Shown here piece by piece: positions 2,886 to 9,302 of a stretch of DNA of 9,302 nt. The notes below the pieces were generated by a model, which worked only from the letters and a program-made list of their open reading frames with translations, was not told where the DNA came from and did no database searches. Origin of the DNA: Pseudomonadota bacterium (GTDB lineage Bacteria; Pseudomonadota; Gammaproteobacteria; Acidiferrobacterales; UBA6901). Both the position numbers and the translations under genes were made by a program. Where the stretch lies: contig JAJXUF010000126.1 in NCBI GenBank assembly GCA_021783175.1, positions 1 to 9,302 on the forward strand. The letters run 5' to 3'. The number at the start of each line of letters is the position of its first letter. Position 1 is the first letter of the stretch.

Positions 2886-4511
2886 ATGAGAAAGTGGTGG
2901 AGCGGGCTTTCACTAAAAAGCAAATTGCAGATCCCTATCCAGCTGGTCCTGATCGTCGTACTGACGATGGTGCAAATGACCGCATTGGACAGGTTCGAGG
3001 CGCATGTGCTGGAAAGCGCGCGCGAAAAGGCAGTCGTTTCGGCGGACGGGGTAATCAACGGACTCAATTTGTTGATGCTCAACGGCATCATCAGCCAGGA
3101 AGACCAGCGCACCCTGCTGGTTAAAAAGATGGGCGCTTCCGAACATGTGCTGGAGTTGCGGGTCATCCGCAACAAGCCGGTGCAGGATCAATTCGGCCCC
3201 GGCATGCCGTCGGAGCAAGCGGTGGACGATCTGGATCGGCTGGCACTGTCCTCTGCAAAACAGCAGCAGGAATTGCTGGAAAAGAACGGCGTGCGCGCAT
3301 TGCGAGTAGTCGTCCCTTTCATCGCCAGCAAAGAATTCCGCGGAACAAACTGCCTGACGTGCCATACGGTGCCGGAAGGCACGGTGAACGGTGCGGCCAG
3401 CATCACGCTGGATATCGCTGGCGAATATGCGGTGGTGAAGCGCGTCAGTCTGACGCTATGGGGGGTGCAGATCGTTCTGCAAATCGCCTTGTATTTCATC
3501 ATCGGCTGGCTGATCGGTCTGGTGACCAAACCCGCGAAAGAGCTGCAAAAAGCCATGCAGACCATGCAGGCGGATGGAGACCTGTCCAAGCGCGTAGTCG
3601 TGCACAGCGAGGATGAAATCGGCCAGACATCCAAAGCCTTCAATGACCTGGCCAACGGCTTCCATGTGATCGTCACCCAGGTTGACGGCCATGCCCATCA
3701 GGTTGCAGATGCCGCGCGCTCGCTTGCGCAGGATGCGGAGCAACTTGCGCAAAGCATGCAACAGCAAAGCGATGCGGCAGATTCCACATCGAAGGCGGTG
3801 GAACAAGTCAGCGCCAGTATCGCCCAAGTTGCGGAAGGCACCGACCAGGTGGCCAGGCTTTCAAACGACAGCCTGGAACGCGCCAACCGGGGGCAGCAAA
3901 GCCTGCAAGACATGATGCGGGAGCTGGAGCGTGTGGAAAGCTCGGTGCAGGAGATCGCCACCGATGTGGGCAAGTTCGTCAACAACACCCAGAGCATCAC
4001 CAGCATGACGCAACAAGTGCGCGAGATCGCGGAGCAAACCAACCTGCTCGCGCTGAATGCGGCAATCGAGGCGGCGCGAGCGGGCGAGCAGGGCCGCGGC
4101 TTCGCAGTGGTCGCCGATGAGGTGCGCAAGCTGGCGGAGAAATCCGCGCAATCCGCGCTGCAGATCGATGAAGTCACCCAGGCTCTTGGCGTGCAGTCGG
4201 GGCAGGTCGAAAAGACCGTGCAGCGGGGCCTGGCTGCTTTGCAAGGCAGCCAGGCGCACATCAGGGAGGTTACAGCCGTTCTGGTGGAAGCCAATGCATC
4301 CGTGGACGGTGTGAATAGCGGCCTGGCGAATATTTCCGGCTCTATCAACAAACAGCGCGATGCCAGCCGGGAGATCACCCGCAACGTCGACCAGATCGCC
4401 CATATGGCTGGCAGTAGCAACGAGATAGTCAAGCGCACCGTCAATGCCGTGAAATCGATGGAAGCGCTGGCGGAAAATTTGAACAAGACCATCGGACGTT
4501 TCAAGGTTTGA
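2886..4511 (+). CDS. Methyl-accepting chemotaxis protein with periplasmic c-type haem sensor domain (first copy)
   Basis: This 541-residue transmembrane chemoreceptor signals to CheA/CheW. Membrane segment 1 is at about 14-34 and segment 2 at about 190-212. Between them lies a periplasmic domain of about 155 residues that ends in CLTCH (156-160; DNA 3351-3365), a c-type haem attachment motif. The pattern [37 protein letters not shown] resembles the Tll0287-like (DUF3365) haem-binding PAS-like domain. A HAMP region (about 211-265) leads to a long helical MCP domain with the invariant hairpin tip at about 380-418 ([18 protein letters not shown], then [18 protein letters not shown]). The C terminus is FKV, with no NWETF-type pentapeptide for CheR/CheB docking. 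The gene follows the sigma-28 promoter after motB. The next gene is a tandem paralogue 43 bases downstream. Redox or gas (O2/NO) sensing is inferred. Haem attachment would need the Ccm machinery, which is not in the window. Confidence 0.93.
4119..4150 (+). repeat. 32-bp exact repeat in the receptor signalling tip, copy 1
   Basis: The 32 bases coding for [10 protein letters not shown] (from GAGGTGCGCAAG to the last bases of the following Ala/Gln codons) are identical to 5794-5825 in the second receptor. The flanking codons differ at synonymous positions. This reflects paralogy of the most conserved part of the MCP domain and is a possible substrate for recombination between the two genes. Confidence 0.6.
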
Positions 4512-4554: not shown

Positions 4555-6186
4555 ATGAGCGAATGGTGGAGCAGTCTCTCAATCAAGAATAAATTGCAGA
4601 TTCCCATCCAGCTGATACTGCTGGTGGTGATGATTGCCGCCCAACGCTGGGCGTTCGACCGTTATGAAATGCGCGTGCTGGAAGATGCCAGGAATCGTGC
4701 GGTGATACCGGCGGACGGCGTATTCAACGGCCTGAACATGATGATGTTGAACGGGACTATTTCGGATGTCGAACAGCGGAAACTGTTCGTCAAGAAGATG
4801 GCTGCATCCAGCAAAGTGGAAGACTTGCGCGTCATACGCGGCAATCCGGTACAGACGCAGTTCGGTCCGGGCGCGACCGAGGAGCAGGCCAAAGACGAGT
4901 TGGATCGTGCGGCATTGAGTAGCGGTACGCAGCAAAATGAAATTACCGAAAAAGACGGCAAGCGTACCTTGCGCGTGGTTCAACCGATCGCCGCCTCAAA
5001 GGACTTTCGCGGTACCGGAACGAACTGCCTGCAATGCCATACGGTGGAAGACGGTGCTGTGATGGGTGCAGTGACCGTGAGTCTCGATATGACCGGCGAA
5101 TACGAGGCAATGAGCAAAGCCAGTGCGATGTTGTGGATCGGACAGGCCCTGGTGCAATTGGTATTGTTCTTCGTCATTGGCTGGTTGATTAATCAGGTGA
5201 CGCGCCCGACGCGGGAATTGCAGCAGATCATGCTGGCGATGCAGACCGACGGTAATTTGTCCCGGCGTGTCTCGGTGCACAGCAAAGACGAGGTCGGCCA
5301 GACTGCCGTGGCGTTCAATGCCCTGATCGATAGTTTTTCCGCCATCATCCGGCAAGTGCTGGACGGCGTGGACAGGATCAACAAGACCACCAGCCACATC
5401 GCCGCGGCTTCATCGGAAGTGGCGGACGGTTCGCGAGCGCAAAGCGATGCGGTTTCATCTACCGCCGCGGCAGTGGAGGCGGTTACGGTGAGTATCAATT
5501 CGGTCGCCGAGAACACCAATGAGGTGCGCGGACTGTCTGAGAAAAGTCTGCAGCAGACCGAGCAGGGCAATCGCAGCGTAGAAGAGATGGTGCACGAGAT
5601 ACAAAGCATCGAAAATGCAGTGCAACAGATCGCATCGGCCGCCGGCGAGTTTGTCGAAAGTGCCCGCACCATTGCCAGCATGACGCAGCAAGTGAAAGAC
5701 ATTGCCAACCAGACCAATTTGCTGGCATTGAACGCCGCCATCGAGGCGGCCCGTGCCGGCGAGCAGGGTCGCGGCTTCGCCGTGGTGGCGGACGAGGTGC
5801 GCAAGCTGGCGGAGAAATCCGCGCAGTCGGCCAGCGAGATCGACAAGGTGACCAGCAAGCTGGATGAGAAGTCGTCGCGGGTGGAGCAGGCCATTGCATC
5901 CGGCGTGCAGTCCCTGCAAACCACGCACAAGCATGTCGAATTGATGGCTGTCGTGTTGAACGAGGCTGGTGCGGCCGTGAAGGAGTCGAACGTGGGGATC
6001 GGCGAAATCGCCGTATCTGTAGGCGAGCAAGGTGCTGCAAGCAACGAGATCACGCACCATATCGAACAGATTGCCAGGATGGCCGAGAAAAACCATGCTG
6101 CAATCGAACAAACGACACATGACATTGGCGATCTGGAACGCATGGGCGTCGAACTGCAGAGTGCAGTCTCGCGTTTCAAAGTGTAG
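4555..6186 (+). CDS. Methyl-accepting chemotaxis protein with periplasmic c-type haem sensor domain (second copy)
   Basis: This 543-residue receptor is a full-length paralogue of the preceding one: the two align from end to end with a two-residue insertion (GTGTNC against GTNC) just before the haem motif. Membrane segments lie at about 14-34 and 192-213. The periplasmic domain carries CLQCH at 158-162 (DNA 5026-5040), and these are its only cysteines and histidine. Met64 in MMMLNG is conserved with the other two receptors and is a candidate second haem ligand. HAMP is at about 213-267 and the MCP hairpin tip at about 382-420. The C terminus is SRFKV. The domain again resembles the Tll0287-like (DUF3365) family. 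Divergence is largest in the first part of the cytoplasmic arm and smallest at the hairpin tip. A difference in ligand or redox potential from the first copy is plausible but cannot be read from sequence. Confidence 0.93.
5794..5825 (+). repeat. 32-bp exact repeat in the receptor signalling tip, copy 2
   Basis: This is identical to 4119-4150. The corresponding stretch of the third receptor (from about 7977) encodes [10 protein letters not shown] with different codons and is not part of the exact repeat. Confidence 0.6.
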
Positions 6187-6305: not shown

Positions 6306-8384
6306 ATGCAAAACAAGAATGCTTATGTTTCGCAAAAGGAAGTGCCGTTCCCGGCAGGGACGGTATTGGTCTCCAAGACCGATACCAAGGGCATCATCAC
6401 CTATTGCAATCAGGCATTCGTGAATATCTCCGGCTACTCGCGCGAGGAGTTGCTAGGCAAAAGCCACAACATCGTGCGTCATCCCGATATGCCGCCGCAG
6501 GCTTTCAAGTGGCTGTGGGATGAGATCAAGGCAGGACGGCCCTGGCGCGGGATCGTCAAGAACCGCTGCAAGGACGGTAATCATTATTGGGTGCGCGCCA
6601 CCGTTGCGCCATTCATCGAGCAGGGCAAGATTACGGGATATGTCTCGATACGCAGGGCGCCGAGCCGCGAGCAGGTGGCCGAGGCGGAGGCGTTGTACCG
6701 GGAGCTGAAGCGAACCGGCGCGCAGGCCGTTTCGCGGTACGAGCGTTACAAATTCAAGAATTGGTCGCTGATCGCAAAGCTGCAGTTCCTGATACAGACG
6801 ACGCTTTTGATCGTGCTATCCGCGGCGCAATTCTTCGTTTCCGCCAACATGCGCGAAGAATCGAAGACGCAGGCAACGGAAAAGGGCGCGCAGATCGCCA
6901 ACGAGATCATTGACGGATTCAACATGTTGATGGTGACGGGGCAGATCGGGGATGTCGGCAACCGCGAACTTCTCATCCGCAAGTTCGGCAGCGGAGTGAA
7001 CATCAAATCGGCGCAGATACTGCGCTCAAAGCCGGTGATCGACCTTTACGGCGCCGGGCTGCCGCAAGAGCGCGTCCAGGACGATGCACAGCGTCAGGCG
7101 CTCGATACCCGGAAACCGGTTGTGATATTCGGCCGGGACGATCAGGGCGCCCAATACCTGCGCGTCGTCACCCCTTATATGGCGAGCAAGGATTTTCACG
7201 GCACCGATTGCACCGGTTGCCATCAGGCCCAGGAAGGGGCGGTTCTCGGCGCATCGGACGTGGTGGTCGACTTGAAGCCGGATTACGACCGCATCAGGCA
7301 TATGGAGATTCAGACCATCTCGGGCCAGATCGCACTGCATGTGTTCCTGTTCTTCTATATTGGTTTCTGCGTAAGACGCTATGTGCGCCGGCCGGCCGAC
7401 ATGGTCAGGGCCGAATTCAGGCACATCATGGAAGGCAACCTGGATAACGAGCTCGACATTTCAACACGGGACGAAATGGGTGTGTTGTTATGCGAGATCC
7501 AGACCATGCAATCCTACTTGCGCACCATGATGGATGAGATTGTCTCTTCGGTGAAGAATATGCGGGAACACATCGGGGGCGTGGATGCCAAGGTGACCGG
7601 AGTGGCGAACAACGCAATGACGGAACAGGACCATATCCAGCAGATCGCAGCTACCATGGAGCAGTTCAGCCAGTCCGTTGCCGAAGTGGCCAATATGGCG
7701 GCAGATTCGCTTGATGATGTCAAAACGATGCGGCAGATCGTCGACGAAAACAGCCGCAACATGGAACTCAGCATCGTGGCGACCGGCAAGGTGGCCAGCA
7801 CCGTCCAGTCATCCAGCAAGACCATCGCCGATCTGGGCGAGTCTATCCAGCGCATCGGTGCGATCGCCAACACCATCAAGGAGATCGCCGACCAGACCAA
7901 CCTGCTGGCCTTGAATGCGGCCATCGAAGCGGCGCGCGCCGGCGAGCAGGGACGCGGTTTTGCGGTGGTAGCCGACGAAGTGCGCAAACTGGCGGAACGT
8001 ACGGCAGCCAGCACCAAGGATATCGCCCGGACCATCGCCGAGATCAATGCGGTTTCCGATACCGCCGTGAAATCGATGCAAGTCGCGGTGACGGAGGTCG
8101 AGGACGGTATCATGCTGATACGCGAGAACGGCGAGGGCTTGAAGCAGATCAAGAGCGCCACGGAAAATGTGTCGGGGCGCGTCGATCATATCGCAACCGC
8201 TTCCAAGGAGCAGTCGGCCGCGGGCGAAAGCGTGGCGCAGAGCCTGGAACGTATCGCTGCGTTGGTGGACAATAATACCCATTCCGCACAAGAGGCCAAA
8301 TCTGCCACTGAAGAATTGGCAAAATCTGCCGATGAACTGAGCAAGGCGGGATATCCGTTAACGAAATGTGCTGTGGGCAAATGA
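6306..8384 (+). CDS. Aer-like PAS chemoreceptor with an added periplasmic c-type haem domain
   Basis: The product is 692 residues from the ATG at 6306. Residues about 15-115 form a PAS domain very close to that of the energy-taxis receptor Aer, with [20 protein letters not shown], then DMP, and [19 protein letters not shown]. In Aer this domain binds FAD and senses the respiratory state from the cytoplasm. E. coli Aer has only a short membrane hairpin after PAS. Here a first membrane segment (about 157-178) is followed by a periplasmic domain like those of the two upstream receptors ([29 protein letters not shown]) with the haem motif CTGCH at 302-306 (DNA 7209-7223). A second membrane segment is at about 338-357. 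A HAMP-like region and an MCP domain follow, with the hairpin tip at about 525-566. The tail ([16 protein letters not shown]) lacks the FKV ending. The start at 6306 matches the Aer N terminus. An upstream TTG at 6222 would add an Arg-rich stretch without homology. No Shine-Dalgarno sequence is close. Confidence 0.92.
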
Positions 8385-8432: not shown

Positions 8433-9302
8433 ATGTCTGATCTGTTAAAGAACATCGATGCCCGTACCAAGCTGGCGGGTACCAACAAGCTGGAGATCCT
8501 GATGTTCACGCTCGGGTTGGACAAGCGCACTGCGCGCGAGGAGACCTACGGTATCAACGTGTTCAAGGTGCGCGAGGTGATGCGCATCCCGCCCATCACC
8601 CGTGCGCCGGACATGCCGGAGGCGGTGGAGGGCATGGTGAGCCTGCGCGGGGCGCTGGTGCCGGTGATCGATCTGGCGAAGTACGCCGGCATCGAGACGG
8701 ACGAGAAGGCCGATATCATGATCGTCACCGAGTACAACGGCCACACGCAGGGATTCCTGGTGAAGGGCGTGGACAACATCCTGCGACTGGACTGGTCGGC
8801 GATGCGCGTGCCGCCGGCGATGCTGGTGGCGCAGATGGGCGGCCTGGTGACCGCGATCACCGAACTGAAGGATGGCCGGCTGGTGATGATGATGGACGTG
8901 GAGAAAGTGCTGTCGGAGACCGGCCACTTCGACGAAGACGAGATGATCTTCAAGAGCGTGAAGCCGATAGGCAAGGATCGCACAGTGTTCTACGCCGACG
9001 ATTCTTCCGTCGCAAGGCACCAGATCCAGCGCACGCTGGATGCGATGGGAGTCAAGTCCATCGCGGCCATCAACGGGCGTCAGGCATGGCTGGAACTGAC
9101 CAAGATGGCCGATTACGCCGTAGCCTCTCATACCTCGATGAAAGACCTGGTGCAGGTCATCCTGACCGACGTGGAAATGCCGGAGATGGACGGATACATG
9201 CTGACGCGCAAGATCAAGTCGGACAAACGTTTTGCCGGGATCCCGGTATTGATGCATTCGTCCTTGTCCAGTACTTCCAACCAGCAGCTCGGCAAAGCGG
9301 TG
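8433..9302 (+). CDS. cheV: CheV, chemotaxis coupling protein with receiver domain (3' end outside the window)
   Basis: CheV links chemoreceptors to the CheA kinase through its CheW-like domain and tunes the coupling by phosphorylation of its receiver domain. The 290 visible codons run off the window without a stop. Residues about 17-165 are the CheW domain (EILMFTLGLD, INVFKVREVMRIP, MVSLRGALVPVIDLAKYAG). Residues about 183 onward are the receiver domain: the acidic pair Asp189-Asp190 (FYADDSS), the phospho-acceptor Asp246 (VILTDVEMPEMDGY), and the Ser of VLMHSSLSS in the usual Thr/Ser position. The conserved Lys should lie just past the window. Third-codon positions appear more G/C-rich than in the receptor genes. 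Its position right after the receptors suggests it serves them, perhaps in the same transcript, with a gap of 48 bases. CheV is known in many Proteobacteria beside or instead of CheW. Confidence 0.95.
   Translation, partial: MSDLLKNIDARTKLAGTNKLEILMFTLGLDKRTAREETYGINVFKVREVMRIPPITRAPDMPEAVEGMVSLRGALVPVIDLAKYAGIETDEKADIMIVTEYNGHTQGFLVKGVDNILRLDWSAMRVPPAMLVAQMGGLVTAITELKDGRLVMMMDVEKVLSETGHFDEDEMIFKSVKPIGKDRTVFYADDSSVARHQIQRTLDAMGVKSIAAINGRQAWLELTKMADYAVASHTSMKDLVQVILTDVEMPEMDGYMLTRKIKSDKRFAGIPVLMHSSLSSTSNQQLGKAV

Follow-up and report, generated by a model that had tools for sequence, protein, structure and literature searches.

Genomic organization of the locus

The window, which is the whole stretch of 9,302 nucleotides that was analysed, shows the gene order flhC-motA-motB-receptor-receptor-fusion receptor-CheW/receiver gene. 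The fusion receptor gene is a single open frame, with an ATG at 6306 and a stop at 8384, and encodes a protein of 692 aa. The first-pass annotation of this DNA had read in this one protein the order PAS, transmembrane segment, periplasmic domain with CTGCH, transmembrane segment, HAMP and MCP domain, and this order is borne out by Pfam, PDB matches, hydropathy and alignment. The features of the region, all on the forward strand, are the following:

2886..4511, +: receptor without PAS, with CLTCH and a homologous sensor (frame, Pfam, hydropathy, alignment)
4555..6186, +: receptor without PAS, with CLQCH and a homologous sensor (PF21563, 27.7 bits, cut-off 27)
6306..8384, +: fusion receptor gene, 692 aa, PAS-TM1-periplasmic haem-type Cache-TM2-HAMP-MCP (frame, Pfam, alignment)
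6363..6659, +: Aer-type PAS, residues about 20-118, with pocket residues H54, N55, R58, F67, W71, N86, V100 and R116 (PDB aerotaxis-receptor chains, residue audit)
6768..6845, +: TM1 region with a KLQ..IQ motif, residues about 155-180 (hydropathy; motif common to haem receptors)
6846..7313, +: periplasmic domain, residues 181-336, predicted single-Cache fold with an inserted CxxCH helix
6930..6932, +: Met209, candidate distal haem ligand (conservation; aligns with the Met of the PF21563 consensus)
7197..7199, +: His298, four residues N-terminal of the first Cys, mostly Arg in PAS-less haem receptors
7209..7223, +: CTGCH, residues 302-306, c-type haem attachment motif (conservation)
7314..7373, +: TM2, residues about 337-356 (hydropathy)
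7371..7523, +: HAMP, residues 356-406, presumed meeting point of both inputs (PF00672, 25.2 bits, cut-off 25)
7797..8264, +: MCP signalling domain, residues 498-653 (PF00015 MCPsignal, 151.5 bits)
8433..9302, +: CheW-receiver protein (CheV-like), truncated by the window end (Pfam)

The start at 6306 is sound, since 117 of 120 aligned rows have a Met at residue 1. The alignment comprises the row of the window and 119 of the best 120 of 2450 matches (7996 candidates scored; P0012, of 441 aa, removed). Counts from this set lean to close relatives, and wider sets of 27 long rows for the PAS domain and 45 rows for the sensor were also used. The loci closest to the receptor of the window belong to Sideroxydans, Sideroxyarcus and Gallionella. 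Among 16 related loci (L010-L025), a CheW/receiver (cheV-like) gene lies directly 3' of the fusion gene in 12, and motA or motB lies upstream of it in nine, some of the loci being cut; four (L015, L016, L017 and L024) show no visible CheW/receiver, motA or motB genes. Five related loci have, directly 5' of the fusion gene, a receptor frame without CxxCH (L012:3963-5645, L014:3720-5714, L018:3885-5555, L020:3228-4886 and L023:4032-5714), which is absent at this place in the window.

PAS domain and flavin pocket

The N-terminal region shows a PAS_3 domain by Pfam at residues 32-115 (E 4.8e-18). Its best PDB matches are 31cj (E 9e-42) and 8dik (E 1e-41), both named aerotaxis receptor, followed by 3ewk (E 4e-32); 8DIK is the PAS domain of E. 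coli Aer (PMC9668731, excerpt). The assignment to the Aer type in the first-pass annotation is thus confirmed, by aerotaxis-receptor chains at E of about 1e-41 and by the pocket residues, which are kept. H54, R58, N86 and R116 of the window align with His53, Arg57, Asn85 and Arg115, which are among the contacts of E. coli Aer (PMC9668731, excerpt). CetB2 of Magnetospirillum uses His54, Asn55, Arg58, Phe67, Trp71, Asn86, Val100 and Arg117, and changing Phe67, Trp71 or Asn86 leads to loss of its function (PMC12442639, excerpt). In the 120 rows (best 120 of 2450), H54, R58, F67, W71, N86 and R116 are invariant, N55 is found in 119 and V100 in 104, with Ile in the others. The invariant residues include the FAD-PAS determinants W71 (Trp at F-alpha), H54 and N86, which correspond to the Trp, His and Asn named as determinants of FAD binding by a survey (PMC10468136, excerpt). 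The wider set of 27 long rows shows H54, R58, F67, W71 and N86 in all 27, and N55 and R116 in 26. Three substitutions rescue FAD binding in E. coli Aer, and Gly29 and Val100 of the window occupy the positions of two of them, S28G and A99V (PMC9668731, excerpt). Since the residues of the flavin pocket are kept, the PAS domain of the window likely binds FAD. A Trp at position 80 in the haem-receptor rows of the residue audit is an alignment artefact.

Periplasmic domain and membrane segments

Hydrophobic stretches (Kyte-Doolittle) within residues 153-180 and 337-356 enclose about 156 residues, including CTGCH. The sensor had been taken to be homologous to those of the two upstream receptors, and the comparison agrees: the TM1-sensor-TM2 stretch is 34% identical over 210 aa to that of the receptor at 2886-4511 (E 1e-44) and 32% over 214 aa to that of the receptor at 4555-6186 (E 6e-38), these two being 59% identical to each other. 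A search with the sensor of the receptor at 4555-6186 gave close relatives only, among the best 120 of 362.

CxxCH and Met209 are each kept in 120 of 120 rows (best 120 of 2450) and in 45 of 45 sensor rows, which include other families and PAS-less receptors; the rows counted for CxxCH were partly found by similarity to the haem region, which favours its retention. The sensor set had been reduced from 67 to 44 rows by removing those more than 85% alike. Of 34 fusion rows, 33 have His at position 298 and one (L022) has Arg; of 11 PAS-less haem-receptor rows, 10 have Arg there and one (L054:456-1001) has His. Met209, a candidate distal ligand, aligns with the Met of the PF21563 consensus. In predicted models, the periplasmic domain is a single Cache fold and the CxxCH helix (302-306) lies between two of its strands; a structure search with the sensor models gave Cache-type matches. 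Tll0287, 3B42 and 3B47 were absent among the matches listed by this search; the Geobacter structures are domain-swapped. Sequence and profile searches of the PDB with the sensor gave no useful match, and the profile searches, run against PDB sequences to E 10, did not find the Geobacter structures 3B47/3B42.

The domain had been labelled DUF3365. Pfam does not assign PF11845 to the protein of the window, so a direct assignment was rejected, and a Pfam search with the sensor by itself gives no family at E up to 1. Kinship with the family is supported by CxxCH, by the Cache fold of the model and by profile-profile comparison, where the sensor matches PF11845 at E 2.8e-10 over the CxxCH half. By hhalign, the sensor matches PF21563 (Mcp40H-20 sensor) over the whole domain (probability 98.0, E 1.5e-13, 149 columns). 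The rows behind this comparison had been selected for CxxCH, and this favours the match. At E up to 0.1, PF11845 is found weakly in 12 of the 45 sensor rows (best 0.0018) and PF21563 in 10 (best 2.9e-5), the row of the window being in neither group. Searches with PF21563 and PF11845 covered one relative and 14 control genomes, with no Geobacter reference sequence. We infer from the sequence that the periplasmic domain carries haem.

Relatives and distribution of the architecture

Mapped over other genomes, the architecture is common, but within one corner of the tree. Residues 1-365 find a match at E up to 1e-60 in at least 70 of the 158 family genomes, and in at least 66 the match runs into or through the haem region, four genomes with only the short form having been removed and one of the 66 (G001) being a contig-edge piece. 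At the level of the order, at least 22 of 399 genomes match, 14 of them in two other families (f218 and f223), with up to five matching places in one genome. The only match in a class sample of 369 genomes is the nearest relative of the window, and among 24 genomes, one each from 24 other families of the order, the best match (E 1.5e-55) ends before the haem domain. At most 12 candidates per genome were scored in the family and at most five in the order and class, and CxxCH was verified in the fetched loci only.

Nine short relatives (L064-L072), with frames of 546-569 aa, show TM1, a short loop and TM2, without the haem domain. The two of them that were scanned by Pfam show PAS, HAMP and MCP over the cut-off and nothing else over it. 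L068 and L069 (HADMP, missed by the motif filter) were left out of the tree, which reduces the short forms to seven, and a split short copy in L052 was also left out. All seven scored short relatives keep the PAS pocket, and their output halves are 57-72% identical to that of the window. In some loci (L064, L065) the short form lies beside a long copy.

The KLQ..IQ motif in TM1 is present in 24 of 27 long, seven of seven short and eight of eight haem-receptor rows, and also in two unscored short forms; none of 11 Aer rows and none of seven PAS-4HB rows shows it.

Another group (L081, L082, L083, L084, L086, L089 and L090) combines an Aer-type PAS, HAMP and MCP with a periplasmic domain that lies between TM segments and has no haem motif. 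In L081, L082 and L009 (record form of L090) this domain is 4HB_MCP_1/TarH by Pfam. These Aer-PAS-4HB receptors have 688-704 aa, and some come from the same genus as fusion receptors. Since 4HB_MCP_1/TarH stands between the TM helices in these other Aer-PAS receptors, at least two kinds of sensor occupy the Aer hairpin.

Origin of the architecture

The output half of the receptor (residues 363-685) is 44.9% identical to that of L080, a plain Aer, and 45.2% and 48.3% identical to those of L081 and L090, both Aer-PAS receptors with a four-helix-bundle domain. Identity to the other 15 Aer-type rows is 28.1-36.8%, and to the eight haem-receptor rows 24.1-26.9%. The output halves of distant long forms (e.g. 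L051, L073 and L075-L078) are 31-36% identical to that of the window. In a quick tree of output halves, from which L009 was left out as a duplicate of L090, the haem receptors form their own clade (SH-aLRT 100) and the half of the window is nearest the Aer type. The 27 long sensors form one side of the sensor tree, whereas in the PAS tree, where resolution is weak, the long rows do not form one group.

The first-pass annotation had explained the protein as an Aer N terminus fused onto a haem receptor like those of the two upstream genes. Such a history would account for the TM1 motif and the sensor, which the fusion and the haem receptors have in common; recombination would be easy between adjoining genes, and the output halves of the haem receptors can be joined with the main group of the fusion without rejection by an AU test (p 0.12). 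The output half nevertheless shows only 24-27% identity to the eight haem-receptor rows and 28-48% to the 18 Aer-type rows, and the haem receptors stand as a separate clade (100), so we consider this history unlikely. Because the HAMP-MCP half is nearest to Aer-type receptors, the haem module (TM1-sensor-TM2) probably entered an Aer receptor. The data fit this direction better than the reverse, and the AU result (p 0.12) means that the opposite origin may apply.

Further AU tests (L027, L051, L087, L091 and L095 were removed before all of them) reject a single clade uniting the output halves of all long and short forms (p 0.0009) and do not reject a single origin of all short forms (p 0.45, unrooted tree). 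Since the one-clade output half is rejected while the long sensors group, the sequences indicate that output halves were exchanged, or the haem module moved, more than once. In the output-half tree the short rows lie in a starred set of 17 long and seven short rows. The short relatives, of PAS-TM-TM-HAMP-MCP type, were considered as the ancestor and set aside: their TM1 has the KLQ..IQ of the haem receptors, and the nearest rows outside the set are long. Because their TM1 carries this motif, they are best read as losses of the haem domain.

Comparison with known receptors

The receptor is like E. coli Aer in its N-terminal PAS with the same pocket residues, its membrane anchor, HAMP and MCP. 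To our knowledge, E. coli Aer has no sizeable periplasmic domain, and the receptor of the window differs from the Aer hairpin by about 156 periplasmic residues with a haem motif. It resembles GSU0582 and GSU0935 of Geobacter sulfurreducens (3B47 and 3B42) in the TM-bounded PAS/Cache-like CxxCH domain, HAMP, MCP and the candidate Met ligand. Met binding in these Geobacter haem chemoreceptors is redox-linked, and no cytoplasmic PAS is described for them, whereas the receptor of the window has one (PMC8396549). With the sCache_heme / DUF3365 / Tll0287 family (PF11845) it shares a Cache fold (in the model) in which CxxCH is inserted between strands; haem Cache domains have been described with a CxxCH helix in this place (2026 preprint). 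The Pfam model of the family does not match the sensor of the window.

A precedent for periplasmic haem c and a cytoplasmic PAS in one chemoreceptor is DcrA of Desulfovibrio vulgaris; its PAS, compared here by description only, is called haem-free and proposed to be an output element (PMC8396549, excerpt). A 2023 pangenome of the Gallionellaceae (mSystems) contains a 'cluster 40' with one CXXCH in 43 of 87 iron-oxidiser genomes, annotated as 'Methyl-accepting chemotaxis sensory transducer with Pas/Pac sensor; Aerotaxis receptor', which is a table line without discussion in section 8 (PMC10734462, excerpt). We infer that cluster 40 is the fusion-receptor family. Sideroxydans ES-1 has one aer gene and Gallionella ES-2 has three, by the count of a 2013 genome paper (PMC3770913, excerpt). 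The text of the 2026 haem Cache preprint does not mention FAD or Gallionella. By term search, a 2026 review of aerotaxis receptors does not mention Sideroxydans or Gallionella and has DcrA and c-type haem in a reference title (PMC13401364).

The first-pass annotation had allowed for the architecture being already characterised; in the open-licence literature, searched by titles, abstracts and passages and partly among the matches listed, no study of an FAD-PAS and a haem-c Cache in one chemoreceptor was found. The parts are thus known, and the whole is probably known in a table; the combination was not found studied in the literature searched.

Proposed function

Since the residues of an FAD-PAS and a haem-c-type Cache share one membrane receptor, two inputs on opposite sides of the membrane, as had been suggested, are the natural reading. 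From sequence and predicted models, we consider it reasonably probable that the protein is a dual-input energy-taxis receptor of Gallionellaceae-type iron oxidisers, with an FAD-PAS inside, a haem outside and a shared HAMP. The PAS would be cytoplasmic and FAD-bound, would report the state of the respiratory chain, and would act laterally on HAMP, as the PAS of E. coli Aer does. On the periplasmic side, the haem would signal redox poise or the presence of a diatomic ligand as Met209 binds to it or comes off, and its domain would move TM2, which enters the same HAMP. Both inputs would thereby act on HAMP and the CheA output of a single dimer. As to its history, an Aer-lineage receptor would have gained a haem sensor module together with its TM helices, and some relatives would have lost the module again.

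The periplasmic domain of such receptors acts through TM2, which runs into the same HAMP. TM2-to-HAMP signalling has also been proposed for the Geobacter haem sensors (PMC8396549), and the PAS acts on HAMP in Aer (PMC9668731, excerpt). Because the PAS acts on HAMP and the periplasmic domain acts through TM2, HAMP is their natural meeting point. The redox potential of the Aer flavin is -290 mV (PMC9668731, excerpt) and those of the Geobacter haems are -156 and -251 mV (PMC8396549). A two-signal 'comparator' role for the receptor is offered as a hypothesis. Its full form, in which one dimer reads the electron-transport state of the cytoplasm through FAD and periplasmic redox or NO through a covalent haem, HAMP compares the two, and the haem module is a cassette that came in at the Aer hairpin and can be taken out with the receptor left intact, is tentative, and we would sooner doubt it than adopt it.

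What the haem reports could also be different. Related haem domains are redox switches in some published cases and NO sensors in others (PMC8396549; 2026 preprint), and the periplasmic haem of the window may be a nitric-oxide sensor and not a redox sensor, with the receptor combining energy taxis with avoidance or seeking of NO. In a haem Cache joined to TM helices and a HAMP, NO release is slow and no stable complex with O2 forms (2026 preprint), and in both Geobacter haem chemoreceptors NO can replace Met60, as can CO in the reduced state (PMC8396549). Many Gallionellaceae have nir and nor genes (PMC10734462, excerpt). In the 158 family genomes, any PF02239 match (cytochrome d1) is found in 27 of 66 genomes with the architecture and 24 of 92 without it (p 0.059, in the direction of NO sensing), but NirK over the cut-off is found in 5 of 66 and 13 of 92, respectively (p 0.31), and NirK or a NirF-sized PF02239 match in 11 of 66 and 19 of 92 (p 0.68). 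None of the three associations is significant, and the test is a weak one that takes no account of relatedness or genome completeness. We regard NO sensing as possible, at somewhat less than even chances. In three genomes (G019, G017 and G033) the sole match of this kind is a full cytochrome d1 domain (PF02239) in a protein of 579-613 aa, with no NirF-sized relative.

A third reading, in which the PAS alone senses and the haem domain is a structural or vestigial spacer, agrees with the short relatives, which keep PAS, HAMP and MCP without that domain, and with the four-helix-bundle domain that other Aer-type PAS receptors, some of the same genus, carry in the same place. A spacer would be expected to lose its motif, but CxxCH is kept in all 120 rows (best 120 of 2450) and all 45 sensor rows, some of them found by similarity to this region; we regard this reading as very improbable. 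Returning to the dual-input receptor, its haem input appears dispensable in some lineages, because seven of seven short relatives keep the PAS pocket without the haem domain.

By what means microaerophilic iron oxidisers reach the thin layer between Fe(II) and O2 is an open question; the 2013 genome paper states that neither of its two strains had been put through specific chemotaxis assays (PMC3770913, excerpt). The fusion receptor offers one testable protein, in which the inner flavin and the outer haem could be switched off separately, and the natural relatives that lack only the haem part could serve as controls. If the comparator reading is true, an iron oxidiser could use this receptor to steer between the opposing gradients of Fe(II) and O2.
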